A DNA stretch of 64,000 nt from Clavelina lepadiformis. Lineage: Eukaryota > Chordata > Ascidiacea > Aplousobranchia > Clavelinidae. Position numbers and translations under genes: made by a program. Location of the stretch: positions 7,068,001 through 7,132,000 of the forward strand of contig NC_135242.1 of NCBI RefSeq assembly GCF_947623445.1, read 5' to 3'. The notes beneath the pieces were generated by a model. It was not told the origin of the DNA and did no database searches. It saw only the letters and a list, made by a program, of their open reading frames with translations. Position 1 is the stretch's first letter. Each line of letters opens with the position of its first letter. Positions 14,265 through 47,728 of the stretch are shown here, piece by piece.

Positions 14265-15808
14265 ATGGCAATTTTAGAAATAATTACTGTCCTGCTTTTG
14301 TCCACGGCATTGACAACCTATGCCCAGGATCAGGAAATTTCGTCACCGCAAATTCCTGTATGCGTGCCGGCCAATTCGGCAGGTATCACCCGAAGACAAG
14401 TTAGTTCTACGTATAGGCTAAGTATGATGCTTCTCTTCAATTGAATTGCATTACTGTTGTGATAGGACCAAATGGTGGATATTTACAACGTCAGAAAGGT
14501 GATCCTGGTGAGAAGGGGGACAAAGGTGAAAGAGGGTTTCCAGGTTATGGTCAAAAATCTACAAGTATGTTACATAATTAACTCTTATGGTGTTCTAAAA
14601 TTGGTATTAAGTTAAGGTGGAAAACGTGAAATGTTCTTTCAGGCTGCCCATTGATTTCATACCACATGCGGCGGCTTGATCAGCGCACTGACTATCCACG
14701 ATATCGGTATTATGTTCCACGAATGACTCAGGCCACTGCGTGTACCTGGGTTGAAACTTCCGACTACAACAACCATGCGACATTGTGGCACTACGCAACT
14801 AATTCGCACGACAACGAATTTTTCTTGGCTTTCTTAAACCCTACAACTATTCGTATGGCTGTTGGTGGAATATTGCACGATTTCCAAGTTAAATCACTTA
14901 CCAGATTTCAACGGGTAAGATGTTTATTGTTTATGGTTTAAGCGTATGTTCTCACATATGTTTTCTTATCCCTTACAAATATCTCCTAACATAATTAAAA
15001 CTTATTATTAACCAATCAGGAAACTGGTCGAGGACTATACCGTGACATGCAGTATAGACTACTAATTGATGCTGCATTCAGTTTACGATAGAAACTTTTG
15101 CCATTTACAGCTCCACATATGTGGATGGTTTTCAAGCTCTCGTCGGCAGATTGGCATCTTCATCAATACCAAGTCGATCTCAACTATGAGCTATAGAGGA
15201 GAAATAATGTTAGGAGGCGGCTCCTTGCTTCTGGGGCAAGAGCAAGATCGCGTCAACGCGCAACGGCTGGATGCGTCTCAATCCCTAAGGTATGAGCGTC
15301 ACTTTGCCCAAATGTGATTGAACTAAATTCAGTGTGTTGGCCTATACAGTACAGTACAGTATATAGTTGAAAAGATTGCACAAAAGACCAAAACACGCGT
15401 TTTTTGTGTACGATAAAATTGCTTTATACACAAAAAAGGTGTTTCTTATCATTATTTTGGTTTCATTTTTATTATTCTCTTCAACATTGTTTACCCAGTT
15501 CAATAACTCACTTGAGTTTATATCTTATTTAACTTGCAGCCGATTTCCGGTTGTAATTATGGGTCATAAAAAATTGCTGGTCGTAATTAAAAAACAACTG
15601 CAAAACCTGTAAGATTTTGTTTACAATTTGCAGTGGCACATTTACAAATATGATGATCTGGCCACGAGTTCTCTCCGAAGACGAGATCTCGAATATTGCT
15701 TACAAATGTGAGTGTCCGCTAGATTACGCAATCGCGCTTACCCTGGATCGAACCGAACTTTATGGAGAAGCCACTTACAGCATTCCCAATGCTTGCCCCA
15801 CTTTCTAA
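14265..15808 (+). CDS. Collagen-pentraxin secreted protein, gene A
   Basis: Five exons, 280 aa: 14265-14382, 14466-14564, 14643-14914, 15111-15289, 15634-15808; phases 1,1,0,2. Exon 1 encodes a signal peptide (LLLSTALTTYAQ) and a linker with the motif IPVC. Exon 2 encodes about six Gly-X-Y triplets (KGDPGEKGDKGERGFPG). Exons 3-5 form a pentraxin domain: Cys in ATACTW and Cys in LHICGW form the expected disulfide, HDNEFF and GQEQD match the calcium-site blocks of C-reactive protein (DNE; EQD), and NMMIWPRVLS matches its MWDFVLS region. The Prosite pentraxin motif HxCx[ST]Wx[ST] is one residue shorter here. Expected role: secreted, trimerising recognition protein of innate immunity (inference). 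Nearest relative is gene B, about 7 residues different. An AATAAA lies at 16010. Confidence 0.88.
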
Positions 15809-16009
15809 ATAAGTGATGAAGACAGATGGATATGGAGACAGCAAACTTGCTTAAACTTTTTATCTGTTTATATTAACAATTTCCCTTTGCCATTAACATT
15901 TCCTGTATTGTATGTATGCTTTTGCGCGATTGGCTTTACATTGAAACGAAGGTATATTGTTTGTACTGTTCTTGTTAATCAGCAAACGGAAAGAAATTAG
16001 AGTGCAACT

Positions 16010-16015
16010 AATAAA
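16010..16015 (+). terminator. Polyadenylation signal of gene A
   Basis: AATAAA about 200 bases after the stop codon; the equivalent hexamer is kept in copy B at 22993. Confidence 0.6.
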
Positions 16016-16408
16016 ATGCTTTGCTAACTGACTTTTATACACAACTACAGTGAATATTCATTATAGTCGTCGGTGTTTTACAAATAACAGTTCACCCAAC
16101 ACACCTACAGACTTAAACGTGGTACAGTGAGACTATATGTTACAACACCATGCAGGTCATACAAATTCTAGATTGCTTGCGTTGCGGTATAGTACAGTAT
16201 AATTGCGTACTTTCTCACTCTTTTCATCTTCGTTGAGTTTTTTACGCTTCCACACTGCGTGATATACAAAACGCATTTATACTTACGCAATTGCTACACT
16301 AGCAAAAGAAACATACGGTCAATGTGCGCGCTGGTTTGAGATATTGTTTATAATCAGCTGTTGTTTTTGGAGTTTAGTCCTTTTTTTCTTTAATTTTAAC
16401 GCTGCTCA

Positions 16409-16947
16409 ATGATGGTTGGTTTTTGAACGGTTCCTACGCTTACAAAGTTACCATTCAAAGCTACCACTGGATCGGAGCCCGAGAAGCTTGTGAAAAGATG
16501 GGAGCACAACTTGCTTATCGAGGCATTAGAAACAGCACTTTAAAAAGGTGAGATGCTGTTGTCCTTGCGGGAAAAGTTTAAGTGCAAGTTTAAATTGTCT
16601 CGTGCGCATTGGTTGGATTTCTTCATTGGAGGTCTTTATTACCCTGTGCACTGGTTTTCATTTAACAAACTTATCATTGACTAATGTATGAAGGTAGGAA
16701 GAGCTATTATTGGTGGTCAGTTTTGGATGGGTGTATGGTTTGGACTCAATGACTGGCGTGAGATAAATTTTGGCTGGACGGCTCCCTGGCGAACAAGCAG
16801 GAGGTGGAATGGGCTCATGGAGAGCCAAACGGAATAAGAAGAGGAAACTGTGGAGAGATGTGGGGAGCATTCCGACGATTTAAAATGAATGACGCTGTTT
16901 GTGGGGACTTGCGTTTTGGGCTTTGTGATTTAAAAAGTACTCCTTAA
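16409..16947 (+). pseudogene. Broken C-type lectin-like domain, EPN type
   Basis: Two exon-like blocks. Block 1 (about 16409-16547, ending at a GTGAGA donor) reads GWFLNGSYAY, then a W..AREACEKMGAQLA motif, the first half of a C-type lectin fold. Block 2 (about 16700-16947) reads FWMG then GLND, and, in another frame, WLDGS, EWAHGEPNG, CGEMW and NDAVCGDLRFGLC, then a stop. This supplies the four canonical cysteines and an EPN motif, which in this family goes with mannose-type calcium-dependent binding. The frame changes near 16755, so the domain is not translatable as it stands; no signal peptide or start was found. It lies right after gene A and has no counterpart after gene B. It is probably a relic of a separate host lectin gene. 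Confidence 0.7.
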
Positions 16948-18502
16948 TATTGCTTTTCTCATTACAAATCATTTGATGCGTCTCTTAGTATTGATTATCA
17001 TAATATTAAACATATAGCTTGTTCTGATGTCGTACTTCAAGAAACTTGTCTTTGTTGGAATCAATATTTGTTTTCTCCAATACTCGGTTCTGAAAATAAA
17101 ATGATATTGCATTTGCTTTTACCACTCAAAACTTAACTTAAGTGAATTTTCTGGCTGTAATTGATAAATGTAAGTCTCCTTTTTAGGGCTTAGAGAAAGT
17201 ATTTAGAGCATATTTAACCTAAGGGTATACTGCAACGTCAATATATCCGATATAGACGGTTTGTGATGCTATTCTTTGCGACTATGTGACAATGGCGTTT
17301 TAATAATATCGCAAACATATAATGTATAAGCAAGGTTGACAGGTCTTCATAATAACAAAATTGCAATTCAAGATACAAACAATTGTTCTTGAATATACGT
17401 AATTTCTAGAAAGGAACTTATCCCGTGTTTCCGATTATTTGATTACAAATAAAACTTTTACTAAAATATAAAGCATTACATTTCCAGCAGTTATAGAACT
17501 ACACGAACAAAAGTTTTTTTTTAAAAAGAAAGACTTAAGCGGCTGTTCAATATTTATTGTTTCAAATTTATTCTACAGTATTTAAACGGCTGTCCAACAG
17601 CAGCAGTTTATACGTTCATGAAATGGAGCAACCATTCGTATAACCCAAATGAGAAGTTTGTTGCATTTTTTTACAAACTCAACACAAAGGACGTCACCAA
17701 ATTTTCGAAATCTGCTTCTCAGTTAAAAGAGTCATGCAGTTTGCGTTCTTATGGCATGTCCAATAAAGGCTAAACATTACTTTGACAAATATTCCAAGAC
17801 CATATTTAACGCGCAAGCATGCGGGTGGTAAAGTGCACAGCGGCAGCGCAACATCTCTACCAAAGTTTTCAGTTTAGTTATAATGCATGTTATTTCGCCA
17901 GCCAGAATGGTTTGCACCCATATTGTTTTTTGTCAAAATGTATGTATATTTTAGCAATCTAAAGTAAACGTACAATGTGTAGCTATAAGTTACGTATCTC
18001 TTCTAGTCATATAATTGCAGCACTATTTATTAACATCATGACCACAAAAGTTTTTAATAAAAGTATTATGTGTCTTGCCTTAATAATTATACGAAATAAA
18101 TTGAAAAACCGTCCTGAAAAACAGAAAGTGCCCGCAGGTCCGAACGCAAGCCGTTGTGCTGTAACAAACACATGCAGGATGTAGCAGAAATGAGACGCGT
18201 AGGAGGTTTTGGCAAACAAAGCAACAAAGAGCTCGGTTGTGTGGGTGCTGATAAAACCGAGATTTCGAGTTTCGTGTATAAGTTCAAGTAAAAATTGATA
18301 ACGGAAACTTTGAGCACTTGATAGTTGATACTCCGCATCGCGTGCATGACTTTTTCGTGGCGTAGCCTGCGGCTCTTTTCTTTCTTCTGGATAGGATTGT
18401 TAATAAAGTGGGCAGGAAAGCGCGATTATTTAACACAAAATATTCTCGTATCAAGAAGATCACTTTACTGAATTTCAACACTTTAAGACCTGTGGGAAAA
18501 GC
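16948..18502. other. Unit-A-specific intergenic DNA
   Basis: Nothing recognisable. It is absent from the equivalent place after gene B, so it arrived with, or was lost after, the duplication. Confidence 0.4.
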
Positions 18503-18893
18503 ATGCTGCGTAAACTGATTTTTCTTATCTGCTCTGCAATTATTTGCTTGATGTTGGCGAAGAGCTCATGGGCTTCGCCATCTGAAAACGACGATCAGGT
18601 AATTCGGGAAATTTGCAAAAAATACAATGTCTTTGTGTATCTTACGTTGGTGCTTAGTAGTAGTTACAGCTTATACTTTGCAGCAAAAGTAAATAGTTTG
18701 TAAACGGTACAGCAAAAGCTTTGTTTTAATCTCCAAAAAGTATCCTCAAAACGTTTGTTGTAATAATGTATTCAAAAAGATTATTGACTTTTTATTTCTG
18801 CTACAAAGGTTTTGCTTTGATATTTATACCCTATTGCAAATGACTTTGTTCTGCAGGATTCGAATAAGTTCTATGAAGAAGTTTTAAGACAAG
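18503..18893 (+). CDS. Truncated secreted-protein gene (first two exons)
   Basis: Exon 18503-18598 encodes a clear signal peptide (LIFLICSAIICLMLA, cleavage near SSWA-SP) and ends at a GTAATT donor in phase 0. A 37-base exon, 18857-18893 (DSNKFYEEVLRQ), flanked by CTGCAG and GTAAGG, moves the phase to 1. Phase 1 into a Gly codon is how the neighbouring genes enter their collagen exon, so the missing part may have been collagenous; this is a guess. No third exon follows: at 18926 the sequence switches abruptly to the repeat shared with 25956, so the gene appears cut off by the duplication junction. Confidence 0.5.
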
Positions 18894-18925
18894 GTAAGGA
18901 TTCGACATATAGAGCATATAGTTTA

Positions 18926-19499
18926 TATAGTATGTGTTCGATCGAGATTAATGTTTATCCAACCACATTATTTCGTAGTGATTGTGCGTAGAGCGATAAA
19001 CTACGGGATATAACAAACAAATTTTTGAAGTGAACAGACTTGCAGATGCGGTTTGTGTTAAAGCTGTGCTCACAGACGTATTCATTATAGGCAAGTGTTC
19101 TGTGTTGTAGACAAAAAACGATAATGTGAAATTTTAAGTTTGTGATAATCAAAGCGAGACGACATGTTTAGTGATATGAAGTTAGAGTTACAACTTATGT
19201 CAAAACTAAATGATAAATGATCTCTTGTTAAATTGTAAATATGGCTGGAAAAGTTGAGTTACGAATTAGGCAGTTTTGGTTAACAAACATGAGTTTTTCG
19301 TAGCCTACTTAGTAAACAACCATGGACTAGATTTAATTGACCGTATAAAATCGGTTGACGAAGTTATAGGTAAAACCGGAGATCAAACTTTTATTTTATT
19401 GCTAAAAGAACCGTGGAATAATATCAGGAGAAGTGTAGCCTGCCTTTGAAGCACTTCTGTTGTCCTGTTGTGGCTTACCTCCTTCCCTTATCTCACAAG
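18926..19499 (+). repeat. Segment shared with 25956-26858
   Basis: Closely similar to 25956-26858 except that the latter carries a 325-base solo LTR. It forms the left shoulder of unit B; its right neighbour (from 19512) matches unit A instead, so unit B is a mosaic of two repeat relationships. Confidence 0.85.
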
Positions 19500-20155: not shown

Positions 20156-21254
20156 TGTCCGTTTGACAGATAAACGTAAAAATCGATTCAAATTTTGTTT
20201 TCAAGTTAAACAATTTTATTTCAAAGGCAAATTTTCTAAGATTGCGACTTAAATAAAATAAGGTCTTACTTTTAAAGATTTATACGTACCGTCCCATATT
20301 GTTTTATTATAGGTGTCTAAGGTGGGATAAAAACTCATTTTAATTTGTAAATCGATCAATAAATAACAAGAAAATTTATTAAAACTCATGCGTTTAATTT
20401 CAAGCAATTAATGCCATATCTAACAAAACCGGCAAAAAGATTAGCCAAAGCATATCGCGTTTTTGAGTGAGAGCAGTTTACCTAAAAGTGTCCCATCATG
20501 GTCGACTTTCTCCGAAAGATACTAAAGCACTTTTGGCCAATTTCGGCGCCATTGATTAGATTATAGCTCAATTAAGATAGCTATACCATCAAGAAAATTG
20601 CCTTGCTCTAATTTCTGTCAAATAAAATATCAGATTAATCTTCTACATCCAGCGTTATATATATGTTTTGGAAAAAGGGTCTTTCAAAGTTCAGACGTTA
20701 ATATTTATCATTTTACTAGCAATCAGTAAGAGTTAGTAACGATACATAACTTCAGTGTATGGTAGGGGAGTTTTTATAACAATTTATCACTTTTAAGAAA
20801 ATTGAGCCAAAGGCTCTTTGTGCCAAATGTGTACAAAAGATGCCAAAATAAAGCAGCTTAGCCCTAGACGTTGCATGCAGTGTAGCACGGTATTTGGAGT
20901 TTGGTCATAGCAGGTTGAGCTGTAGTTTGGAACTGTTTAAATCAAGCGTTTGAAACAACCTATTTATGAATGGACTCGTCTCGTTGATAAAAATAACAGC
21001 CAGAGCAGACCTTTCATAAACACTAATATAAATATTTGTTGAGCGTATTTTTTAAAACTTTTAAATCTTTAAAATTTCGCAGTTGTTGAAATCACGTTTT
21101 AAACGCAAAGATAGCGAATTACTCTAATTGGAATAACTTACTTATCTAGTGAAATTGTCTCAGTCGCAAATCAATAATTGTAATAGCAAAAGAATATCTT
21201 TTCGAAATTTTACACTGAATAAGGTGTCTATAGACTGTAAAGTACACCTTGAAC

Positions 21255-22792
21255 ATGGCAATTTTAGAAATAATTACTGTCCTGCTTTTGTCCACGGCAT
21301 TGACAACCTATGCCCAGGATCAGGAAATTTCGTCACCGCAAATTCCTGTATGCGTGCCGGCCAATTCGGCAGGTACCACCCGAAGTCAAGTTAGTTCTAA
21401 GTATAGGCTAAGTATGATGCTTCTCTTCCATTGAATTGCATTACTGCTGTGATAGGACCAAATGGTGGATATTTACAACGTCAGAAAGGTGATCCTGGTG
21501 AGAAGGGGGACAAAGGTGAAAGAGGGTTTCCAGGTTATGGTCAAAAATCTTCAAGTATGTTACATAATTAACTCTTATGGTGTTCTAAAATTGGTATTAA
21601 GTTAAGGTGGAAAAGTGAAATGTTCTTTCAGGCTGCCCATTGATTTCATACCACATGCGGCGGCTTGATCAGCGCACTGACTATCCACGATATCGGTATT
21701 ACGTTCCACGAATGACTCAGGCCACTGCGTGTACCTGGGTTGAAACTTCCGACTACAACAACCATGCGACATTGTGGCACTACGCAACTAATTTGCACAA
21801 CAACGAATTTTTCTTGGCTTTCTTAAACCCTACAACTATTCGTATGGCTGTTGGTGATATATTACACGATTTCCAAGTTGAATCACTTACCAGATTTCAA
21901 CGGGTAAGACGTTTATGGTTTAAGCATATGTTCTCACATATGTTTGCTTATCCCTTGCAAATATCTGCTAACGTAATTAAAACTTATTAACCAATCAGGA
22001 AACTGGTCGAGGACTATACCGTGAACTGCAGTGTAGATTGCTAATTGATGCTGCATTCAGTTTACGATAGAAACTTTTGCCATTTACAGCTCCACATATG
22101 TGGATGGTTTTCGAGCTCTCGTCGGCAGATTGGCATCTTCATCAATACCAAGTCGATCTCAACTGTGAGCTATAGAGGAGAAATAATGTTAGGAGGCGGT
22201 TCCTTGCTTCTGGGGCAAGAGCAAGATCGCGTCAACGCGCAATGGCTGGATGCGTCTCAATCCCTGAGGTATGAAGCGTCACTTTGCCCAGATGTGATTG
22301 AACTAAATTCAGTGTGTTGGCCTATTCAGTACAGTACAGTATATAGGCTAGTTGAAAAGATTGCACTAAAAAACAAAACATGCTCAGTGTGCGATAAAAT
22401 TGTTCTATACATAGAAAAGATGTTTCTTATGATTATTTTGGTTTCATTTTTATTATTCTCTTCAACATTGTTTACCCAGTTCAATAACTCACTTGAGTTT
22501 ATATCTTGTTTGACTTGCAGCCGATTTCCGGTTGTAATTATTACGGGTCATAAAAAATTGCTGGTCGTAATTAAAAAACAACTGCAAAACCTGTAAGATT
22601 TTGTTTACAATTTGCAGTGGCACGTTTACAAATATGATGATCTGGCCACGAGTTCTCTCCGAAGACGAGATCTCGAATATTGCTTACAAATGTGAGTGTC
22701 CGCTAGATTACGCAATCGCGCTTACCCTGGATCGAACCGAACTTTATGGAGAAGCCACTTACAGCATTCCCAATGCTTGCCCCACTTTCTAA
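21255..22792 (+). CDS. Collagen-pentraxin secreted protein, gene B
   Basis: Exons 21255-21372, 21456-21554, 21632-21903, 22090-22268, 22618-22792; 280 aa, same phases and exon lengths as gene A. The domain order is signal peptide, IPVC linker, about six Gly-X-Y triplets, pentraxin. By eye it differs from gene A at about seven residues, including HDNEFF to HNNEFF. The changed Asp aligns with Asp60 of C-reactive protein, a calcium ligand, while the GQEQD block is unchanged. Two others fall in the head as well (Gly to Asp before ILHDF, Arg to Trp in NAQRLD). The gene appears intact. Poly(A) signal at 22993. It probably arose by the 7 kb duplication and may be shifting its ligand or calcium use (inference). 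Confidence 0.87.
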
Positions 22793-22992
22793 ACAAGTGA
22801 TGGAGACAGATGGATATGGAGACAGCAAACTTGCTTAAACTTTTCATCTGTTTATATTAACATTTTACCATTGCCATTAACATTTCCTGTATTGTATGTA
22901 TGCTTTTGCGCGATTGGCTTACATTGAAACGAAGGTATATTGCTTGTACTGTTCTTGTTAGTCAGCAAATGGAAAGAAATTAGAGTGCAACT

Positions 22993-22998
22993 AATAAA
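22993..22998 (+). terminator. Polyadenylation signal of gene B
   Basis: AATAAA in the same relative place as in copy A. Confidence 0.6.
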
Positions 22999-23290
22999 AT
23001 GCTTTGCTAACTGACTTTTATATACAACTATAGTGAATATTCATTATAGTACTCGGTGTTTTACAAATAACAGTTCAGCCAACACACCTACACACTTAAA
23101 CGTGGTACACTGAGACTATATGTTACAACACCATGCAGGTCATACAAATTCTAGATCGCTTGCGTTGCGGTATAGTACAGTATAATTGCGTACTTTCTCA
23201 CTCTTTTCTTCTTCGTTGAGTTTTTTACGCTTCCGCACTGCGTGATATACAAAACGAATTTATACTTACGCAATTGCTACACAGTATAAA

Positions 23291-23899
23291 AGAAAAGAAA
23301 ATTTAGCATAGAAAATGCTTTGCGTCAAAAATATTATAATTTTTGAAGATGTTATAGGTGAACTTTACGATTGTTTTTAATTTTTTTTCATTTCTCACGC
23401 AAAACATCTCAGCTTGGAGATGCATGTCTTTGAAAATGTGGAAGTCAAACAGGTTGGGAAATACCAACGAGTTACGTAAACGAACAATTTTTTGAACATG
23501 ATTGAGCCGATGTAAACCCAATATAGATACGCCAAATGTCACCCGAGTGAAAAACTGAAAGTAAGGAGCAAGTCAAAAAACAAGTTGCTCTTATATGAAG
23601 AACACTACTCACTGAACATTCTGATAAAATAGTTTTGAAAAATAATTCTTGGTTCGGTAATTCTTAGCAAAAGAAAATCGCAAAATTGGTATTAATTGTG
23701 ACGTAGATGAAGGCTCTTGTGATGTCATAGGTAATCACAGACAACATTCGCAAATTCAAAAATATAGCTGTACCTACCGTATATCACGTATGTGTCTATT
23801 ACAGTTGTATAGACTGTTCTAACTGCCAATAGCTTCATAGGTGACAACTTATAGGCCAACCACGGCAACCAGTAGGGTACCCGTTTGACGGTTTATTTT
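23291..23899. other. Unit-B-specific intergenic DNA
   Basis: Begins where similarity to copy A stops. No exon or element end recognised. Confidence 0.35.
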
Positions 23900-24149: not shown

Positions 24150-24960
24150 AGACGTGCCTTGTCTTTTACCAAATGTAAAACAATTTGGTATAGTGAACTG
24201 TAGGTCTCTTCGAACCAGCAATAAGAAAAGGCCAGTAACATTATCAGACGAAGATTATGAACATGCTCAAAATGTATGGAAAACGTTTAATTTAAAATGC
24301 ATGGGAAACATCATGACTTGTATCTTAAATCAGATGTTTTGTTATTAGCAGATGTATTTGAAAAATTTAGATAACTTGTCTTCAATATTGTGAAGTATTC
24401 CCTTACACTACCTAGTTTATCTGGTATGCAAAGCTTAAAATGACTGAAATCAATTCAGACTAAATGTTTGATATTAACCAATATTCATATAAAAGGGTTT
24501 GAGAGGTGGTGTTTCCTATATCGCTAATAGATATGCTAAACTTTAGCAACTTGCTTTAGCAGCTAAAGCAAATAAAAAATACTTAAAAGATTATGACTAA
24601 AATAAACCATCAAATTACATTACATACTTAGATGAAAACAATTTATATGGTTGAGCAATGAGTCAAAATTTTCCTACTGGTCGTTTTAGGTTGTTGTCAG
24701 AAGAAGAAATTAATAGAATAGATTTACACGAAGCGCCTGCGATACGCACCGCGCTTAGCAAGATTAAGCAAAAAAGTGATCCGCGAAGCGCCCAAACGGT
24801 TAATATTAGAAGTTCATTTAGAATATCCTGAGAAATTACATGAAGATCTTAATGATTATCCATTAGCTCCAGAGAAAATAGTAGTTGAAGATGATGTGCT
24901 TTCAGATTATTGCAAAGAATAAAAATCAAGATTTGGAATAAAAATTAATGGAATTAGAAA
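24150..24960 (+). mobile_element. Polinton/Maverick-type (family B DNA polymerase) fossil
   Basis: Fragments of a protein-primed family B DNA polymerase of the kind carried by Polintons and related virus-like elements: a TLSDEDYEHAQNVW-like block near 24240 and a YLDENNLYGWAMSQ-like block near 24625. Only part of the polymerase is recognisable, it is broken in several places, and I saw no capsid, integrase, ATPase or terminal repeats. It looks like an old partial copy. A family B polymerase from another mobile lineage is the alternative. Confidence 0.7.
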
Positions 24961-24974
24961 GTTAGTATCTAGCT

Positions 24975-26948: not shown

Positions 26949-26969
26949 CATTGAAACCAGAAAGCAAAC

Positions 26970-28707
26970 ATGAACTTATTTGTGATTTTGTTGTGTTTAG
27001 CATTTATTTTTATAGGCTCATATGGCCAGTTTCAAAATCAGTACACACAGCAAGCTCCAGTTTGTACCTCCATACCAGTAGATGAGCCGACTGAAGAACG
27101 ACAAAGTAAGTTAAGCTGAGCTTATAACGCAGAGCAATTTATGTAAAGATATATTGCTTAATATGCTGTGCTGGGGTGGGCTGCCATACGAAAGTTGTTC
27201 CTTGACCTCAAAAAGAAGCTGTTACTATATCACCGGCAAAAATCGTATGTTCAAAGTAATTTTTCATGTTTTCTTGTTAACCTAACTAAAATGTAACAAC
27301 ATATAGTAACTTAAACCTAATCTAAATCTTCTTTCTAATCTAAATTTAATTTCAATTAAACTATAGATAACTTAAATCAACTTTTTGCATATCCATTCTC
27401 TTAACCTAACCAGCTATCTTTAACAACAGGCAGCGTGACCTAAGTACGGTGAAATATTTCTCTGTAAACAAATTACTTTAGCTAATCATATACGTACCGT
27501 TATAAAAACCTGCATCGTTTTATTATCAGCAAAAAAGGTAAATAAAAGCTTTTAGCAGCACTTTGCTGTTTTTTACAATCATCAAGTGACCACGGCTATC
27601 GAATTCATCTTAAATCAGTCAAAACGCCTTAGGCTGTTTTTTTCTTCATTTATTACTACTTGTGTTCACAGCGTTTTGTGTGTCAAGAAGCGGAACGAGA
27701 AGAGGATGGCACAAAATGAGCAAGCTCCCGCGCTAGCTTTGATACATTGTTTTTACTTTTGATTAATTGCTTAAAGAATTATTTAATAACTGAAATTTAG
27801 GACCTTACCAAGGCCTGAAGGGGGAACAGGGTAGAGCAGGAAAAAGGGGGTCCTGAGGGTGAAAGGGGCAGCCCCGGACATCGTTGGGGTCATGGAGGTA
27901 AAGAGCTAAAAATATAATTTTTTAATTAAAATGTAAGCAACATGTATGACATGCATATAAGTTAAACATGAATATAACTGCATGCTTTTTTTGCAATAAC
28001 ACCTCCATATAATTATATAATTCCTCAATCTACCTAACGCAATTGGTTTGAAGATGAACTATTTTATGAAGTGATCACGTATGGTGAATCATGACATCAC
28101 TTCAAATTCATGACAGAAGTTTTGAAACATCTGAACCAATGTTTGCTGCGACTGTGAGCGACTTATTTAAGGTTTACAACAAAAATGCTTGCAACTGGAA
28201 GTCTTCACGTGCGTGTTAGAAATACTTACCGCAAATGTGCTAAGAGTATACGTTCAAAACTACTTTTCATTTCAGTTCCACCCCTGTGTATGGTTTTCTA
28301 ACAGGTCTCAGGAAACAGGAATGTACATCAACAGCGAATCCGTATCAACTTTGATTTTGAAAGGATTCGTCGGCCAAGGAGGGGGTACATGATATTTGGC
28401 CAAGTTCAAGATGACGTCAACGCGAGAAATTTGGAGGAGAATCAAGCTTACAAGTAATGACGTCATATATCATGTTGTAGGTTGTTTGGTGCATTTCTGG
28501 CTTTTCAAATGTGTCTTGACTTTATTTAACAGTGGAAACATCACCAACCTCATGATATGGCCTCGTGTTCTTAGTCAAAATGAAATCATCAATCTTGCTT
28601 ACAACTGTGAGTGTCCTGTTGACTACGTCATTGCACTGACACGGAACCGAGTTGAATTATTTGGAGAAGCTTATTACAGCATCCCTGATACTTGTCCGAC
28701 TTTGTAA
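26970..28707 (+). pseudogene. Collagen-pentraxin gene C, broken relative of gene D
   Basis: Exon 1 (26970-27105: signal peptide LLCLAFIFIGSYGQ, motif APVC) and exon 5 (28533-28707) are intact. Exon 2 (27801-27897) has one extra G in the run near 27846 compared with gene D, which throws the collagen repeat out of frame. Exon 3, the first half of the pentraxin head, is missing: sequence like the left flank of gene D exon 3 runs straight into intron 3. Exon 4 (28276-28453) is out of frame near 28387, where gene D reads GGGSMIF. Splice sites and the AATAAA at 28907 remain. A product could be at most a signal peptide with a stub of collagen. It pairs with gene D by sequence and linker motif, so it is the dead half of a duplication. 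Confidence refers to pseudogene status. Confidence 0.88.
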
Positions 28708-30632: not shown

Positions 30633-30654
30633 TATTAAAATCCAGAGAGCAAAC

Positions 30655-32689
30655 ATGAACGTACTTGTGGTTCTGTTGTGGTTAACATTTCTTTTTACGG
30701 GTTCTTATGGCCAGTTTCAAAATCAACACAGTCAGCAAGTTCCTGTTTGTGCCTCTATACCTGTGGGTGTACCTGTCAATGGCCCTGGTAAGTTAAATGA
30801 TTTCGTTGTAGTGTAGATGTAATGAAACGTCACAATAAAACAACTGTCAAAAGACAAAGCAAGCTAAATGCAACTTGGAACGCAAGACATTTTATAGCCT
30901 ACTAAAATTATAACACAAGGAAAATAAATTTTATCGATTATTAAAAATGATTTAAGAACTTACTTTTAGAAACCTTTCAAGGCCCAAAGGGGGAACATGG
31001 TACTGCAGGAAAAAGGGGTCCTAAGGGTGAAAGGGGCAGCCCCGGACATCCTTGGGGTCATGGAGGTAAACAGCTTAAAAATATATTTTTTTAGTAAAAA
31101 TGTAAGCAACATGCATGACATGAATATAACCACATGTTTTTTTTAGCAATAATGCCTACATATACAGTTATATAATTCCTCATTTTATCTAAATCAATTG
31201 GTTTGAAAGTGAATTATTTTATGAAGTGATCACGTGGTGAATCATGACATCACTACAAATTCATGACAGAAGTTTTGAAACATCTGAGCAAAAGTTTGCT
31301 GCACTTGATTTTTCAAAAGTTCGAATTCGTATATTTTTTTTCAAATATCAGGTTGTCCCACAATCACGTATCACTTTCCACGTGATGACCAAATCGCTGA
31401 TTACGTCTGGTATCGATCCTATGTTCCACGAATGATTGAGGCTACTGCTTGCGCCTGGCTTGAAACGTCTGACTTCCATGATGACATCGCATCGTGGGTT
31501 AGTTACGCCATCCCTGGTCAAAACAATGAATTTCTCCTCAGTATTCGAACCAAGACCACTGCAGACATATACATTGGCGGACAAAGTCATAAACTACTAC
31601 TACCGGATCTGTCTTCTATGAACAAGGTATACGCTTGGTTCATGAAAAGGTACATTAGGTTATCTACAAGTTTATGATTAAACACAGCAGTACCTGTACA
31701 ACAATATCCAGCTTAAGTTCGTATCTCGGTGAAGTTTGCAAAAATTTATTACAAATTTTACATTCAACTTTTTCAGCAGTTTATCATCAAAAACATGTCA
31801 ACTTGCCATCAAAGAAGTTAAAAATAGCTGTATTAAAGTTCAAAATATATTAAACATATCATGAATTGTTAGTTGATGCATATTTGCGCATATTAGGCTA
31901 CTTACAAGCTGCTTCTGTTGTATATGCAAAAAAATTAGCCTAACTTCAGTTAAGGCATCCATTAGCCTTGAATGGTTACTGATTAGCGCCTTCAGTTTTG
32001 CTGATATATACATTACATAACGATACGCTTGTTGTAAAGCTACCGTATTTACAGCACCATACTTGCTAACTTCACACCTAACGCATAAGTTCGCACAAAC
32101 TGTTCAGATTCAAGTCGTGAACTTTACCGAGATCTTACTATAACTGTAATTCAGCTTAAAAATTATAGTATTTTTACTACGAAGTTGCTTGCAAACCTTT
32201 GTTTGATTCATAGCATCATTCTACAATACCACGTAGTAAAATACGTTACATTTCAGTTCCACGCCTGTGTATGGTTCTCCAACAAGACTCGGCAAACCGG
32301 AATCTACATAAACAGCGAACGCGTATCAACTTTGCCTTTGAAAGGATTCGTCAGCCAAGGAGGGGGAAGCATGATATTTGGCCAAGACCAAGATGATGTC
32401 AACGCGGGAAGTTTGGCAGAGAATCAAGCTTACAAGTAATGACATCATATATAACGCCATAGGTTGATCGGCGCATTTTTGGCTTTTCAAACGCTTTTCG
32501 ACTTTATTTAACAGTGGAAACATCACCAACCTCATGATATGGCCTCGTGTTCTTAGTCAAAATGAAATCAACAATCTTGCTTACAACTGTCAGTGTCCTG
32601 TCGACTACGTCATTGCACTGACACTGGACCGCGTTGAATTATTTGGAGAAGCTCATTACAGCATCCCTGATACTTGTCCGACTTTGTAA
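30655..32689 (+). CDS. Collagen-pentraxin secreted protein, gene D
   Basis: Exons 30655-30787, 30970-31065, 31352-31626, 32257-32435, 32515-32689; 285 aa, phases 1,1,0,2. Signal peptide (VLLWLTFLFTGSYGQ), linker with VPVC, eight Gly-X-Y triplets (GPKGEHGTAGKRGPKGERG), a PWGHGG turn, then the pentraxin head opening with GCPTITYH. Exon 3 is one codon longer than in genes A, B, E and G. Head landmarks: ATACAW... here EATACAW; FHACVWFS for the HxC cysteine; LMIWPRVLS; terminal CPTL. The calcium blocks are altered: QNNEF where C-reactive protein has DNE, and GQDQD where it has GQEQD. All junctions are consensus or near it. Intact and probably functional, with a different metal or ligand site from gene A (inference). 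Confidence 0.88.
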
Positions 32690-36403: not shown

Positions 36404-36419
36404 CGCTATCTCAAAGGTT

Positions 36420-37939
36420 ATGAAAATGATGTATTGTATTGTTCTTATGGGTTTTATGGTATTTTTTGCTGGTGAAAGAACTTATGGCCAAGGCACCAGT
36501 GCACCAGAACAACAGCTGCTACAAGTGTGCTCCCCTGTATCAATATCAGGAATACAATCTGGACAAAGTATGAGTTTATTTTTGCAAATTGATCTTTTCA
36601 AAAGTACCTTTGACCAATTCTCCAACCAACATGATAAACTAGATCCGACTGGCTGACTATTTCAATCAACAAATCATTGCGTATACCAGTCCTCGCAGAG
36701 CATCTACAATTAGTCATGCTCCTGAGGAATAAATATTTAAGCGCGTTTACGTGAGGACTTGCCTTAATATCATTTTATGCAAACTTATAGATATTTACCG
36801 GGGTGAAAAAGGGGAACAGGGGAAAGCTGGTAAAAAGGGGCCTAAGGGTGAAGACGGATTACCAGGACACAAAGGAGAAAAGGGACAATCAGGGAGCAAG
36901 GGTGAAAGAGGATTGCCTGGACGTAGATGGGGTGTTGCCGGTAAAGTAAACCTGAACAGAAAAGTTAAATCACAAATGGCTACATATTTGTAAAACGGTT
37001 TTGTATAAATTTGCAATGAAAATGTCATCCGTCGCAACTGACACGAAAATAATATTTTGATTATTATTTTAACATTAGGTTGTCCTACTATCACTCATCG
37101 CCTTCCACGTGATAACCAGGTCACTGACTATGTTTGGTACCGATCATACGTTCCTAGAATGACCGAAGCCACAGCTTGTACTTGGCTTGAAACGTCTGAT
37201 TACAACCACCATGCAACGTGGATTAGTTGTGCCAATTCCGCTAACCACAATCAGTTTTTTATGGCTTTCATGAATCCAACGACAATACGGTTAGCCGTTG
37301 GGGGCCATACTCATGATTTTACGGTACCGCGGTTGACAACGATGCAGAAGGTAAAAAAATTAGCTCGTAGCCCGAAAACATTTGTAGATCGTAGAAACAT
37401 TTGTAGAATGTACTGTAGATTTTTTCTGCAACAATTTTCTTTTTAGGTTCACATCTGCGCATGGTTTTCGTCAAAAAGGCGCGAAATAGGAATTTCTATC
37501 AACGCCAAAACAATTTCAGTTTTACCTTACGGAGGTGAGATCATGAACGGAGGAGGATCCTTGTTGCTTGGTCAAGAACAAGATGGAGTGAACGCGGGGA
37601 GTTTAGCCGCAACCCAAGCTTTCCAGTTAGTTTGTTAACTCATTTGCAAATAATGTAAATAAATAATTAGGAAAAGTTTAAACTTTGAAAGTTTGACTGA
37701 TTTGAATGATAAATATATTGCCGCTGCACTTTGTGTGACTTAATATAATATCTCTTATTTTCAGCGGCAACATCACAAACCCAATGATGTGGCCTCGTGT
37801 GTTGAGTGAAGACGAGATCAGCAATCTTGCTCACAGATGTGAGTGTCCTGATGACTTTGCAATTGCATTCACCCTTGATCGAGCAGAGTTTTTCGGGGCT
37901 GCTACATACAGCAAGCCTGACATTTGTCCAACGCTGTAA
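36420..37939 (+). CDS. Collagen-pentraxin secreted protein, gene E (longest stalk)
   Basis: Exons 36420-36567, 36791-36940, 37079-37350, 37447-37625, 37765-37939; 307 aa. Signal peptide (VLMGFMVFFAG... TYGQ), linker with LQVC, then 14 nearly uninterrupted Gly-X-Y triplets (KGEKGQSGSKGERGLPG among them), the longest stalk in the cluster, then RRWGVAG and the head opening GCPTITH. Head: EATACTWLET, VHICAWFSSKRR, LLGQEQD, MMWPRVLSEDEI, terminal CPTL. GQEQD is kept but the first calcium block reads NHNQF, so Asp60 of C-reactive protein is His here. Exon 4 ends at a GTTAGT donor. An alternative Met two codons downstream is possible. Intact. Closest to gene G by head sequence and by the CGGCAACATCAC start of exon 5. 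Confidence 0.88.
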
Positions 37940-40900: not shown

Positions 40901-43111
40901 TATAATAGCTATGTCATGGAGTTGTGACAAACATAAAATCTATAAACAGAATAATTTGCAGTTATAGGTTTAACAAAGCCCTTTTTAAGCAAAAAGTATA
41001 TTGCTGATTTTTGTTTTATACACTTGCTACAGTTGTGGCCATAGATGCAAACTTTATTTTTGAGTTGCGTTTTCTATTTTCGGTTGTGAACATTAAAATA
41101 TATAGTTACATTAAACAACGTGTGCATCATAACAAGCTTAGTAAAGCCTCTTTGAATAGATGACTTGTTTTATGTCAATAATAAAATAATATCATCATCA
41201 GATTAAGTTCAAAATTACCTGAATCATTTCATCAATGCAATAGGTGATTGTATTTGTTTCATATAGTTGACTAAATGCGTTGTTGATCTTATTCCATCCG
41301 ATAATGCACTTATTTCAACATTTTTAATTTTACAGTATTCCTCTGTTGATTTTATTCCTGTGATGAATTTAATGTGGGCGCCCATTCGAAAATAATTTGC
41401 ACTCAACAAATCAATGGATTAGAAACGATCAAGTTTTACAAAGCAACTGGAATCAATGAAGCGTAACAATGTTGATGTTACGCTTTTTAGCACGAGTGGG
41501 CAATATGCTTTGAGGAATTTTAAGGTGAAGCAAACACTTTTTATTATTCCTGTGATACTTTTTTTCTCTTTATGGCTGGAAACAATAACTATTAATTGTG
41601 ATATAGAATTAAAGTTGATCACAAGCTATGGGTCGTTGTTGTGACAGGTTTACCAAAGTTTAAATAGCCTTTAACTGAAAACGTTTAAAAAATCTTTTAA
41701 AACGTATAAGATTTAATTGCGAAAAATCTATGATTTACTATAGTCGGGCTACCGTAAACGCAAACCTCATGTTCGGTTTTACTTTTGATTATTATCAACT
41801 GCCATTTCTTATTATCAACCATTTATTGCCAGTTCCTTTTGAATTTTGAAGGAATTATATAATACATAGCTTACTAAGCTTGCCTAAATACTTGTATAAG
41901 GAAAATTAATTTGAATATAATCTTAAAAAAATGATAGCAAGTGTTTGGGTTATAACTTTAGCGTGGTGATGTTGTTTGCGCACAAGTAGAAAAGAGTTTA
42001 CATTCTTCTACCATTGCTTTTCTGTTTATAGGGGATATTCCGAAGTCATATACACCTTAGCTTATTCGTAATTGCTTCCTCATTTTGATCATTGTCGCGA
42101 TCTTTTCCTTAGACTTTACTTGCGTGCTCAACAACTTTATGGATGAAAAAATTTTGGTGAGTTTAGCTCTTGAATTCGTGCAAATTGCCGCTTTCTGGTG
42201 AAATAAACTCCATTTTGTTGGTTATTTTATGTGTTTTTTTTTGGGCACATATAAGAAATGGTGTTGTTAGTATTGTTGCAAAGGAGGTACAAAGACCAAA
42301 ACGACAGTCGGCCGAATTCTGCATTTGTCCATTACCACGAATGTTGATTAGCAGTGTTTCTCACTGCAGGGTTAAAATAAAAACGCATAAACATTTAACA
42401 GAAATATCAGAACGATTGTTAAATTTATGCCGCTTTTTTACGAAATGAATTGGACTGTCATTGGGAGTAATTGTGACAAATAGGAATACAACTCTAATTT
42501 CAAATCGAAACTTTTTATAATTCTTTTCTACATAATTTACAAAATTTCTACAAAATTTAAAGCCAATATCCGAAATCTTTTTTCTGTTTTCTGTATCATC
42601 ATAGTTTCTGCGTCACAATTTTAGGTGATATACTTTAGTTTACTGTATTATCGTTGACTTCTCTATCCAGTCGCTTGAATAATACCTAGTTAAAAAACTT
42701 GTTATTATATTATTTTTTTATAAAATTTTTTGTACAATCAAACCTTGTGACAAGTTTTAAGCATGGCCATACAATTTTTTACCCGTCGCATTTGAAATGA
42801 ACACAACAAACGACCGATTGCACAAGTAAGAAATGAATAAAAGAGAAAAAGTTTCTTTGACTTTGAGTTGACCTGATAGTAAAGTCACTGCAATTTCAAC
42901 TCTCCGTTTGGTGCTTTATAGCAAAATTGTCTAGTGTTATTTCTTTAGGAAATTTCAAAGTTTTTTGTTCCTGTAATAGAGATATGATTCGCGATCTGCA
43001 TATTTTAAGCGTCAATTGAACATTTGTGTCCCTTTTAATTATTACTTTTTTAAATTAAAAAGTTTTCGTTTTTACATTTTCATGTTTTTCTTAAAAAATT
43101 GAATGCAACAG
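37940..43111. other. Intergenic between gene E and pseudogene F
   Basis: About 5.2 kb. A frame at 39974-40159 has a hydrophobic stretch ending HSYGCG, faintly like the SYGQ end of the family's signal exons, and another at 42170-42448 has a hydrophobic run then FCICP; either could be a relic of the missing exon 1 of gene F, but neither is convincing. TA-rich simple repeat at 40311-40350. A TATAAAAG box occurs near 38616. Confidence 0.35.
40311..40350. repeat. TA-rich simple repeat
   Basis: Alternating TATAG/TATAC units. Confidence 0.8.
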
Positions 43112-43830
43112 ATTGTACTACCACTATCACGTATCACCTACCACGTGATGGCCAAATCACTGACTACGTTTGGTACAGATCCTTCGTTTCTGGAATGCCC
43201 GAAGTAATTGTTTCAGCCTGGTTTGAAACGTCTGAGTTCAATGCTGACTTTTCGTCGTAAGTTAGTTACGCTGCCAATAACCAAGCCAACATATTACTCC
43301 TGAATTTTCGTTCAGCTACCCGGGTAAAAGCCTGGATGTATGGAAAGAAACACGTGTATGATGTGCCCAATCTCTCTGTTGTGAGTAAAGTACGTCTAGA
43401 TACACCAACAAAGATTTCGTTTGTCTGTGAAATTTCATCAATTACAAAATGTATTTTTTACAGAAAAAAATAACCAAATAGCCTAATCGAAACATTATTT
43501 CAGTTTCATGCCTGTATGTGGTAGTCCGAAAAGACTAAACAAACCGGGATGTACATTAACACACGGAAAACAGCTACTTTGCCTTTGAAAGGATCTATTA
43601 ATCAAGGGGGAAGCATGATATTTGACCAAGACCAAGATGTCGTCAACGTTGGAGACCTTGATCCCAAGCAGGCATTGAAGTTCGTATAGGTTTAATCACC
43701 ATTTAAGCTATCCTTATTAGCTGAATGCTGTTGCCTTTGTTAGTGTTGTTGCTACGTACACCACGTTTTGTGATTTTCTTAACACTTAACAGTGGAAACA
43801 TCACCAACCTCATGATATGGCTTCGTGTTG
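43112..43830 (+). pseudogene. Collagen-pentraxin pseudogene F (head only)
   Basis: Exon 3-like block 43112-43389 (TYHLPRDGQITDYVWY), exon 4-like block 43504-43679 (SMIFDQDQD) and the start of exon 5 from 43793 (NITNLMIW). Splice acceptors remain, but exon 3 has an in-frame TAA at 43258, exon 4 has a TAG where the head reads CVWFS, and exon 5 breaks off near 43830 into a tandem GGCTTCGT repeat. The signal and collagen exons were not found upstream. Residues such as LPLKG and DQDQD place it with genes C and D. A dead gene, older than C. Confidence 0.88.
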
Positions 43831-43835
43831 TATAT

Positions 43836-43862
43836 GGCTTCGTGGCTTCGTGGCTTCGTATA
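43836..43862 (+). repeat. Short tandem GGCTTCGT repeat
   Basis: Three or so head-to-tail copies exactly where exon 5 of pseudogene F breaks off. Confidence 0.75.
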
Positions 43863-44341
43863 ATACTTTATCCATTGCCCAAACAAGCAAAAATGCCAAA
43901 CAGACCGATGTTGGTGTACTTGCATATAAATTATTATCACAGGTTGGGCAAAATGTGATGTAAAACTTCAAAGTTATATAGCCACACAAAACATACTATA
44001 TAATTTAGAACGAATGGCTCGTAACAACATCTATGCTCATCTTTGAGGAGGCTAAATCATTGTATAATATATATTGAAGAATAGATGTAGACAAGAGCGG
44101 TACTTGACAATGACGGCAACCATCAGTGTCACCAATATGTTTTAAAAAGATAGGCGGCACCTTATCAAAATAAAGCGTTTTGTCTAGCAAACATGGTGAA
44201 TAAGCTGCAAACCTTTTTTGGATGACAAAAATGATTACCTTTATCTTGCGCTATCGTCGTTACCCATTACCGTTAATGTCATTACAGTCTATAAATAAAA
44301 GGGGAGTCCACGAAAAAAGATAACGTTTGTTTGTAAATATC

Positions 44342-44688
44342 CAGGCTTGTCCATGGGAAATGTCCCATGGGATGGGATGGGATGGAACAGCACGAATTGC
44401 AATTCCCATCCCAGGAATATGAGTACCAATGATAATAAATTGTCATAGATAGACAACTTTTCTGAACTTTAAAGTTAACAAAGTCAATAAATTTTGTCGT
44501 TTTGTATCTCTCTTTGTACATGTAGTCAATTCTAATAGACATTAGACTTAAAATTCCATAAATTTAATAACATTTATTGAATTGTATTTTGATGGGAATC
44601 CCATGGGATGAGATGGGATGGGACAGGCATGAATTGCTATGGGATAGGATGGGATGGGACAGAAAAAAATGTCCCATGGACAAGCCTG
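44342..44688. mobile_element. hAT-type MITE, 347 bp
   Basis: Ends CAGGCTTGTCCATGGGA and its inverse TCCCATGGACAAGCCTG, flanked by an exact 8-base duplication TAAATATC (44334-44341 and 44689-44696). CAG...CTG ends with 8-base duplications are hAT hallmarks. The inside is GGGATGGGAT-type repeats forming a large imperfect foldback, with no coding. The exact duplication suggests a fairly recent insertion. Confidence 0.88.
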
Positions 44689-45263
44689 TAAATATCTGCT
44701 TGTCATCTTTAAACCGGGTTCGGTTCTTCGAATTAGCTTGTTCTAACAACATCCCTAAATACTTTCCTAGCTTTGTAAAACCGATTAAAACGATGTGAAT
44801 TGTCATTAATTCAGTAAACGTGATTCATTTCGTACGAAAAATGCTGATTTTTGCAAAGTTTTTTTGACGATGCGCATTCTCGCGGTGAATATTCTGTTGG
44901 TATGAAAATAGTCTTAAATGTAAATTCAATTGAAGTTGTTAAAGAAGAACTGAAGTTACTTTATATCTATTTTTCAAAAACTATAAGAATACTCTGATTA
45001 CGAAATTACATACAACATTTTTCTTCTACTTCTCTTCGTTTACAAGACAGTGCGCGACGCCCATTTCATGTTCCCGCGGTGGATCGGTATTCAAGCCCAT
45101 ATCGGATCAATGCAAAGTAGCTGTTGGAAGACTCGTTTCAGCAAACTTGTAGTGGACGTTTTTCTTATAAATTTACATTACTGGTTGGTTAACTGATTAT
45201 AAGATGGGTTTATCATTTAACAAATGTTATCTGTATATGCGCTTTATGTGGCCTTAGTTCAAG

Positions 45264-45307
45264 AGAATCTAGATTCTAGACTACACTCTAGACTAGAGTC
45301 TAGACTT
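45264..45307. repeat. CTAGA palindrome cluster
   Basis: Five CTAGA/TCTAG units forming overlapping palindromes; could extrude as a hairpin. Function unknown. Confidence 0.6.
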
Positions 45308-45708
45308 TTGTCAGAACTTGTTAGTCAGAGCTGATAAAATTGATAGGGCCTAAATAAATTTCAACATGTATAACTTCTGCAGTGTATAGTCGATATACAG
45401 CTGGCCTACAAAAATTAGCAAGAAGCAAAGTTAACTTCAACTGAATATACTTTGTTAATACAAAGGTTGAAGCTTGATAAGTGTTTTGGTAAATTACGTC
45501 CAAGCATAAAACATAAATGAAACTTCCGATGGCTTAATCAGTTCGATTAACAAGCATGAAAATGAAAGATTCTGTATCATTTAAACTTTTTTTCCTTGTG
45601 ATATGCGTTTTAAAGCAGGACGATTTACATCAGTTAATGTTCCTAAACTATGCCGTATTTTTCCAACAAATATAAAATATAGTAACTTTATGACTTCAAA
45701 CAGAACTC

Positions 45709-46014
45709 GTGATTTTGATTTTTTTAATTGTACCACGAGTGTGTATACGGTGTGTACACCGCACGAATTGTTTTTTCGTCATCTTAGTCAGATATATGCA
45801 GTTTACAGCAATCGTGAGCCAGAACACGACTCTGCAGATTAAAAAAAATTCTTCTGAAATCATAAACAAAAACTGCAAAAAGTGCTACAGCACATGCAGT
45901 AGGTGTTGCAAGTTGCAAAACTGTGAAAGTGCAAGGCCCGAACATTGCAAAAATTGTAAAAATTCTGTCACTATATCCAAGAAATTACAAGCGCTAAAAG
46001 ATGTTATGACTTGA
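45709..46014 (+). CDS. Doubtful Cys-rich small frame
   Basis: A 101-codon frame whose last third has eight cysteines spaced C2C3C2CC4C7C2C, ending before TGA at 46014. A separate signal-like frame starts at 45556 (SFKLFFLVICV) but I could not join the two by convincing splice sites. The cysteines come from a TGCAAA-rich stretch, so chance is a real alternative. Confidence 0.2.
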   Translation: MILIFLIVPRVCIRCVHRTNCFFVILVRYMQFTAIVSQNTTLQIKKNSSEIINKNCKKCYSTCSRCCKLQNCESARPEHCKNCKNSVTISKKLQALKDVMT

Positions 46015-46209
46015 GTTGTGACAGACTGACAGTTTCACGGTAATTAGTCAGTATATTTAGGCGGAACGACAATATGCAGTATACTGACAGACTTCACGGT
46101 TTATTTCAATTTAAAACGTTTAAAAAACAATTATTTAAAAAGTTAATTTTAATTACCAAGTCTTAGTCGGAATTTTTAGCTGAATCATTCAAAAGCTTGG
46201 TATATAAAA

Positions 46210-47728
46210 ATGCCTTTAAAAAACAAAAACCAATTTGTTTTTGTAATATCTGTCGTGACCTCTTTCCTTGTTGAAACAAGCTATGGTCAAACCTCAGATC
46301 CACAAGCGCAACATCTGGTTCCTGTATGTGCCTATGTGCCAGAAGCAATGCAACGTGGACATAGCAATGCAGGTAAAAGTAATTTTACTTTTTTTGAGGC
46401 AACCAAACCATGTTTCGAAACGATTTTACTTAAATGCACTTGTGCAATAAAAACTCAAAAACAATTTACTTTTAGGATGTTACAATAAGCATTTAGCTTT
46501 GTAATTATTGCTTGAGTTATTTAAGTGGATGACTAGCAGACAAACCTTTTGCACAATATTTTATCATTTTTTATTCTGAATTTTAGGTTTCTACCGCGGT
46601 GTGAAAGGCGATCCTGGGATTGTTGGTAAACAAGGTCCCAAAGGTGAAAAGGGGGTTCCCGGAGAAATGTGGAATGTCGGTGGTGAGTTATATTACACAA
46701 TCTTTAACAAATCATTACTTGCAACTTATTGCTTTTGAGTAATCATTTAAACTCCAGTAAAACTATTCAATTACATGCTATGCATAATTCTTTGTAAATA
46801 ATTTTGACCAGGCTGTCCAACTATTACGTATCACTTTCCACGTGATAACCAAATCACTGACTATGTTTGGTATCGATCCTATGTTCCACGAATGACAGAA
46901 GCCACTGCTTGTGCTTGGCTTGAAACATCTGAATATAATCATCATGCTACGTGGATTAGCTACACTACCTCGAATCGTGACAATGAGTTTTTTATTGCGT
47001 TTATAAATCCAACTACTGTACGCTTGGCTATAGCCGGCAAGGGGCACGATTTCACGGTGCCACAGTTAACATCTGAAACCAAGGTAAAGGTGAATTTTCC
47101 CGTTGGATGTATCATCTCTGTGATATTTAACTTTGAAGCAGAAAAAATGTGGACTTTTTCATAGTCTGGGCACATGTATTATGGTTATCATCAACTCCAG
47201 AAACTATACTGGATAAATTTGTTTACAAACTTCATCTCATAATGTTGATTTTAGATGCATTTTTGTGTCTGGTTTTCTTCCAAACGTCGCCAAGTTGGAA
47301 TTTCAATCAATGCCAAATCAGTTTCGGTTTTATCTTACACAGGGGAGATTATGAATGGAGGAGCTTCAATGCTTCTTGCTCAAGAGCAAGATAGTGTGAA
47401 TGCTGGAAGTTTAGACGCAAGCCAAGCTTTCCAGTAGGTCTATATAAATGCAATTGCAAACGTTGTCAAGTTTAATTTGAAGTACATTCCGGTTTGTTGA
47501 ATAAACTCCTTCATACTTTGTTGTCACAGAAGCAAAAATTATTTTATTTTCAGCGGCAACATCACAAACCCAATGATGTGGCCTCGTGTGTTGAGTGAAG
47601 ACGAGATTAGCAATCTTGTTCACAGATGTGAGTGTCCGGTCGACCATGCGATTACATTCACCCTTGATCGAGCTGAGCTATATGGAAGTGCTACTTACAG
47701 CATTCCTGATGTTTGTCCAATTATTTAA
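46210..47728 (+). CDS. Collagen-pentraxin secreted protein, gene G
   Basis: Exons 46210-46372, 46587-46682, 46812-47083, 47255-47433, 47554-47728; 294 aa, phases 1,1,0,2. Signal peptide (FVFVISVVTSFLVETSYGQ), linker with VPVC, eight Gly-X-Y triplets (GVKGDPGIVGKQGPKGEKG), EMWNVGG, then the head opening GCPTITYH. Head blocks: EATACAWLET, RDNEFF, MHFCVWFSSKRR, LLAQEQD, MMWPRVLSEDEI, terminal CPII. Both calcium blocks (DNE and QEQD) match C-reactive protein, so this is the best candidate for classical calcium-dependent binding, though the Gly before QEQD is Ala. TATATAAAA directly precedes the ATG; if it is a real TATA box, transcription would begin inside the frame, so the true leader may be trans-spliced or the start lies elsewhere. 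Intact; sister of gene E. Confidence 0.87.

Follow-up and report, generated by a model that had tools for sequence, protein, structure and literature searches.

A 64-kb stretch of the genome of the ascidian Clavelina lepadiformis (C3:7068001-7132000 of a 209 Mb genome; henceforth the window) carries a tandem array of genes that join a short collagen-like stalk to a pentraxin head. Five of them (g1, g2, g4, g5 and g7) are intact, lie on the plus strand and splice from five exons with GT/AG introns into products of 280, 280, 285, 307 and 294 amino acids, respectively, while two more (g3 and g6) are broken (Table 1). Intron phases of 1,1,0,2 are common to all intact copies. Exon 1 encodes a hydrophobic leader, judged by eye and not by a predictor, followed by a short Cys-bearing segment; a structure model of g7 places a helix at residues 6-21 in the leader region. 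The Cys ahead of the stalk lies in IPVC (g1, g2), VPVC (g4, g7) or LQVC (g5). The Gly-X-Y triplets come from exon 2, which is symmetric (phase 1-1) and measures 96, 99 or 150 nt; the head, about 208 residues long, is spread over exons 3-5. A preliminary description of this DNA had proposed five intact and two broken genes, expanded in tandem, with a conserved Cys in a P-V-C or Q-V-C context, 6-14 Gly-X-Y triplets and a three-exon head. These points were borne out, as was the order of leader, collagen and pentraxin in all five spliced genes, the pentraxin profile being matched in the four products scanned.

Database protein models are identical to the spliced products of four of the five genes (g7, P0001; g5, P0002; g4, P0003; g2, P0004), and the g1 product differs at 7 residues from the model of its twin g2. 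The twins sit in a 2.8-kb block (13481-16311 and 20475-23295) whose two copies share 95.3% identity, counted over introns and flanks as well, which indicates that their duplication is recent and supports tandem expansion of the array. In g3, counterparts of exons 1, 2, 4 and 5 are present and the first head exon was not found; the frame is lost through the lengths of the collagen exon (97 nt) and of the second head exon (178 nt). For g6, neither a leader nor a collagen exon turned up in a protein search or a six-frame triplet scan.

Table 1. Genes of the collagen-pentraxin array, in positions of the window.
Feature	Position	Strand	Exons and content
g1 exon 1	14265..14382	+	leader, IPVC
g1 exon 2	14466..14564	+	collagen, 6 triplets, without GKxGP
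g1 exon 3 (head)	14643..14914	+	Cys36 equivalent, D60 N61
g1 exon 4 (head)	15111..15289	+	Cys97 equivalent, EQD, D147, Q150
g1 exon 5 (head)	15634..15808	+	WPRVLS, CECP, stop
g2	21255..22792	+	21255-21372, 21456-21554, 21632-21903, 22090-22268, 22618-22792
g3, broken	26970..28707	+	exon 1 26970-27105, collagen 27801-27897, exon 4 28276-28453, exon 5 28533-28707
g4	30655..32689	+	30655-30787, 30970-31065, 31352-31626, 32257-32435, 32515-32689; 8 triplets, GKRGP
g5	36420..37939	+	36420-36567, 36791-36940, 37079-37350, 37447-37625, 37765-37939; 14 triplets, GKKGP
g6, broken	about 43111..43830	+	head exons only, in-frame stops, end truncated
g7	46210..47728	+	46210-46372, 46587-46682, 46812-47083, 47255-47433, 47554-47728; 8 triplets, GKQGP

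The stalks hold 6 (g1, g2), 8 (g4, g7) or 14 (g5) Gly-X-Y triplets in a register that is unbroken in every intact gene. In a six-frame scan of the whole window, the five collagen exons were the only hits with runs of at least five triplets, and chance is therefore not a sensible account of them. A structure-database search with a 22-residue stalk listed only collagens and collagen-like peptides. Against the Pfam collagen cut-off of 27.2 bits, g5 scores 35.2 bits, g7 and g4 fall below it and g2 is unlisted. The stalks of g1 and g2 are identical, and the ten stalks of the family, relatives outside the window included, comprise nine distinct ones.

The head belongs to the pentraxins by profile and by predicted fold, in agreement with the preliminary description. 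All four products scanned lie above the Pfam pentaxin cut-off of 25 bits (g2 60.9, g4 59.5, g5 55.2 and g7 73.6 bits), and the head of g1, which was not among them, is identical to that of g2 at 202 of 208 residues. The g7 model predicts a pentraxin jelly roll whose first structural match is neuronal pentraxin 1 (NP1), with NP1, SAP, NP2 and CRP nearly tied in Z. The sequence marks by which the head had originally been recognized are real: ATAC.W and H.C.W occur in all five intact genes, whereas the others are less uniform than claimed, with DNE only in g1 and g7 (NNE in g2 and g4, HNQ in g5), GQEQD in g1, g2 and g5 (AQEQD in g7, GQDQD in g4) and an exact MMWPRVLS only in g5 and g7 (MIWPRVLS in the other intact genes). 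Equivalents of Cys36 and Cys97 are both present throughout and presumably form a disulphide bond. The eight-residue PROSITE signature of pentraxins reads HxCx[ST]Wx[ST]; the corresponding octapeptides, HICGWFSS (g1, g2), HACVWFSN (g4), HICAWFSS (g5) and HFCVWFSS (g7), place W where S or T is expected, so that it is profile and fold that assign the heads to the pentraxins. For those family proteins that were scanned with Pfam, neither a C-type lectin nor a fibrinogen domain was listed at E up to 1. A genome search with the Pfam pentaxin model gave 8 matches, none of them in the array, which a protein search did find; exon-by-exon scoring with this model thus misses the collagen-pentraxin family.

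CRP positions were assigned to the heads through sequence alignment. At what we take to be the two-calcium ligand set (D60, N61, E138, Q139, D140, E147 and Q150 in CRP numbering), all seven positions carry suitable residues in g1 and g7, where Asp takes the place of Glu147. The sites of the other copies have Asn at 60 and Asp for Glu147 (g2), Asn60, Asp138 and Ala147 (g4), or His60 and Ala147 (g5). Judging from these residues, calcium-dependent binding appears likely in g1 and g7 and uncertain in g2, g4 and g5. Differences among g1, g4, g5 and g7 cluster near the ligand positions (at most three residues away; mean entropy 0.904 versus 0.602), with entropy as high in 0 of 165 circular shifts (1 of 165 for a distance of two residues, 0 of 165 for four), in an exploratory test that was chosen after the variable columns had been seen and that compares four sequences. 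Four of the six differences between the g1 and g2 heads fall within the same near-ligand 27% of positions.

The architecture is not confined to the window. Three further Clavelina genes on two other contigs combine collagen and pentraxin: P0007 at C4:8.81 Mb, with 6 triplets, and P0009 and P0010 at C1:5.01 Mb, both over the Pfam collagen cut-off with 5 + 16 triplets around a single interruption. Among 14 other pentraxin-hit stretches examined, a triplet scan that is blind to runs under five triplets found a collagen run in these 3; L040 and L043-L050 contain heads or head parts without such a run (L047 has a poly-Gly run only, which is not collagen-like), L051 contains one head exon and L052 none. 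Of the genes with a collagen run, two neighbouring long-stalk ones, in L041 (3568-5350) and L042 (from about 2954), have lysine-free triplets; the window stalks are lysine-rich. In Ciona, four proteins were found; two of them, F6Z4Q2 (P0005) and P0011, comprise a leader, a Cys in QICAP, 8 and 7 triplets, a coil-like segment and a head, and the other two models begin inside or just before the head. The relatives outside the window have, by eye, such a coil-like segment between collagen and head. The two Ciona stalks score 18.9 and 16.7 bits, under the Pfam collagen cut-off, which is probably why the proteins bear the plain database names neuronal pentraxin-2 and serum amyloid P-component-like. 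Of the defence collagen with a pentraxin head put forward in the preliminary description, architecture and fold stand, and the architecture recurs in Ciona; its local scope was too narrow for what is an ascidian family.

A profile search returned 11 proteins: nine came from ascidians (five from Clavelina and four from Ciona), and the other two were an acorn-worm pentraxin and a short unnamed fragment. It was too far from exhaustive to show absence outside ascidians, missing P0004 and P0007 although both were query rows; another search gave only its query, and another protein search also returned an eel pentraxin. A head tree of 20 rows, the genomic ones being exon fragments, separates 18 ascidian rows from the long-branched eel and acorn-worm pentraxins with support of 100/98; g1, P0013, the second L046 copy, L048, L050 and L051 were left out. 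Support for joining the C4 gene to the Ciona proteins is 84/90, which does not reach the 95/80 mark set by the tool. Mapping the collagen label onto the tree needs three changes, at least two of them forced by well-supported branches, and one may be false, as Ciona P0008 was counted as lacking collagen yet looks incomplete (no leader). More than one gain or loss of collagen is likely on this tree. Pentraxins without a collagen run from Clavelina C8 and C9 (L040, L043, L044) group with Ciona P0012 at 98/97 and share CxCP, and possibly constitute a separate ascidian pentraxin class. For two nodes that we assume to bracket the Ciona-Clavelina split (rows 80 and 79, row names unconfirmed), a dating paper gives 259 and 274 million years (PMC5899321). 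The simplest reading of the sequence comparisons is that the collagen-pentraxin fusion is older than this split, and the collagen-pentraxins are probably an old ascidian family and not a local novelty.

Collagen-pentraxins are pentraxins by profile and fold, resemble defence collagens by anatomy and are full members of neither classical family. MBL, ficolins and C1q share a plan of leader, N-terminal Cys, short Gly-X-Y stalk and C-terminal recognition head; the window proteins follow the same plan, with Gly-X-Y preceding the C-terminal recognition domain in all five, but where those carry a C-type lectin, fibrinogen-like or C1q domain, their head is a pentraxin. Long pentraxins (neuronal pentraxins 1/2, PTX3) likewise have a C-terminal pentraxin head behind an N-terminal region. 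In long pentraxins that region is a coiled coil, a section named in the title of the PTX3 structure entry 8s50, whereas in the window proteins it is collagen. CRP and SAP lack a collagen part and instead bind C1q (PMC3791837); the window proteins differ from both in their collagen stalk, in extra Cys including a C-terminal CxCP ... CP, and in a ligand pocket with F66 and E81 replaced. The Ciona proteins F6Z4Q2 and P0011 match the window proteins in leader, Cys, triplets and a pentraxin head with the CxCP mark, and differ from them by a Cys-rich hinge and the coil-like segment between collagen and head.

A further likeness to MBL and ficolins is G-K-x-G-P, the core of the MASP-docking motif, for which two papers give an aliphatic residue or Met as Xaa (PMC3179595, PMC2592599). 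Six of the ten family stalks have it (g4, g5, g7, P0007 and the two from Ciona), and four do not (g1, g2 and the C1 genes P0009 and P0010). Unlike in the published motif, Xaa is Q, R or K in Clavelina; it is aliphatic (Ala) only in Ciona, and Pro precedes the Gly only in P0007. No stalk matches the full consensus for certain. As proof of MASP docking the motif was rejected and kept as a lead only: triplet shuffling within the six stalks yields G-K-x-G-P in 13-43% (in an analysis omitting the first five-triplet segment of the P0010 stalk, by eye lysine-free), and the stalks that share it belong to related copies. Inspection by eye of the CUB, trypsin and sushi matches listed for Clavelina, and of the four stretches L053-L056, brought up no MASP gene. 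MASPs are reported from other ascidians (PMC5465252), and Urochordata have collagen-bearing ficolin and MBL of unclear complement function (PMC11312191). That pentraxin heads trimerised by collagen would recruit MASP directly through G-K-x-G-P, as a one-chain complement trigger, is possible but not likely. Under such a scheme g7, having both the full calcium set and the motif, could be a complete activator; the motif is missing from g1 and g2, and in g4 and g5 it goes with an altered calcium site. If true, a CRP-type head and an MBL-type protease-docking stalk would be combined in one polypeptide, a task for which vertebrates use two steps (CRP, then C1q with C1r/C1s).

The genes encode a leader-like N terminus, a Cys, Gly-X-Y triplets on a phase 1-1 exon and a head that matches the pentraxin profile, with a predicted fold for g7. 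We consider it fairly probable (roughly 60%) that the products are secreted, soluble recognition proteins of collectin/ficolin-like build with a pentraxin head. Three chains would wind through the Gly-X-Y stretch, the N-terminal Cys would lock the trimer, and several trimers would cluster. Heads would then bind ligands that recur on surfaces, with calcium in g1 and g7 and perhaps weakly or not at all in g2, g4 and g5; avidity would arise from the cluster, and opsonisation or complement recruitment would follow through the stalk. The tandem copies, differing most around the ligand site, would probably see different ligands. If the collagen stalk is trimeric, a plain pentamer becomes less likely.

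Several observations weigh against recognition by such trimers. A triple helix of six to eight triplets would be very short, and in the window genes the coil-like segment of their relatives is missing, which leaves the nucleation of a trimer unexplained. Residues 22-78 of the AlphaFold monomer model of g7 have a predicted local confidence (pLDDT) below 50, although a monomer model says little on a triple helix. The single weak block in the modelled head, residues 221-230, is the calcium loop itself, which slightly lowers our confidence. Calcium ligands are changed in g2, g4 and g5, and the phosphocholine residues of CRP are replaced in all five heads (F66 by Ala or Ser; E81 by Leu, Ser, Thr or Gly), from which phosphocholine is not the expected ligand. 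The clustering of differences near the ligand site comes from an exploratory comparison, and average selection on the heads is purifying, not diversifying: the ratio of non-synonymous to synonymous change (dN/dS), computable for 4 of 10 pairs, is 0.29, 0.18, 0.18 and 0.16 (two of these four pairs have dS about 1.6; dS was saturated in the other six), so that positive selection is rejected as an average. A Ptx-like gene, which may or may not be one of the collagen-bearing ones, is reported among genes induced by lipopolysaccharide (LPS) in Ciona granulocyte haemocytes (PMC9960688).

The same LPS response bears on an alternative without any immune role, in which a neuronal-pentraxin-type head would be tethered by collagen to matrix or tunic as a matrix or synaptic organiser. 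Some family members are named neuronal pentraxin-1-like or -2-like in databases, the g7 model matches NP1 best, and the calcium site is partly lost in three copies; the near tie in Z, however, makes the NP1 match non-discriminating, and tandem arrays that contain dead copies (two here) and diverge near the ligand site are more usual for recognition families. Together with the reported LPS induction in haemocytes (PMC9960688), this makes an organiser unlikely. Slightly less credible again is that Gly-X-Y is a mere flexible linker, too short to trimerise, and that the proteins act as ordinary short pentraxins. The 6-8 triplets of four of the five window genes, the sub-threshold or unlisted collagen scores of g4, g7 and g2, and the missing neck coil would fit this, but a linker does not readily account for the unbroken register, the Cys ahead of every stalk, a separate collagen exon kept in frame in every intact copy, or the longer stalks of g5 (14 triplets) and of P0009 and P0010 (about 21 with one interruption), all three over the Pfam cut-off. 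That gene prediction or assembly fused unrelated exons is very improbable: the database models are themselves predictions, yet exon order and intron phases are the same in five copies, models are identical for four (the P0002 record being placed on a differently sized contig), and the same order is seen again in two Ciona proteins and, within Clavelina, in three genes from two unlinked loci.

Around the array, Ty3/gypsy-type retrotransposon-like frames with reverse-transcriptase-like motifs (by eye) lie just upstream of g1 (10127-12471, plus strand). Downstream, ankyrin-repeat-like exons (by eye) apparently form one large gene (55279-63843, plus strand), within whose region MULE-type transposase-like frames, also judged by eye, lie on the minus strand (60182-60969). 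A 61-aa frame (16762-16947, plus strand) that resembles a lectin tail by eye was rejected as a C-type lectin neighbour after Pfam gave no match, and the frames 24722-24922 and 43725-43958 had no Pfam match.

A search of the literature by full-text phrases and by titles and abstract starts, mostly without subscription papers, found no description of a collagen-pentraxin protein, and the family looks like an old kind of recognition protein that is apparently undescribed. Most of its stalks lie under collagen cut-offs, which probably explains why the genes carry CRP-like or neuronal-pentraxin-like names and makes the family easy to miss; it is also easy to test, as Ciona is a laboratory animal. 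Structurally it is a puzzle how a three-fold collagen stalk goes with a domain best known as a five-fold ring. In vertebrates, pentraxins depend on a second protein with collagen, C1q, for triggering complement. A family from the vertebrates' sister group that unites head and stalk in a single chain, and has apparently done so since Ciona and Clavelina parted, would represent a second solution to the same problem and would bear on the origin of the pentraxin-C1q partnership and of the lectin pathway.

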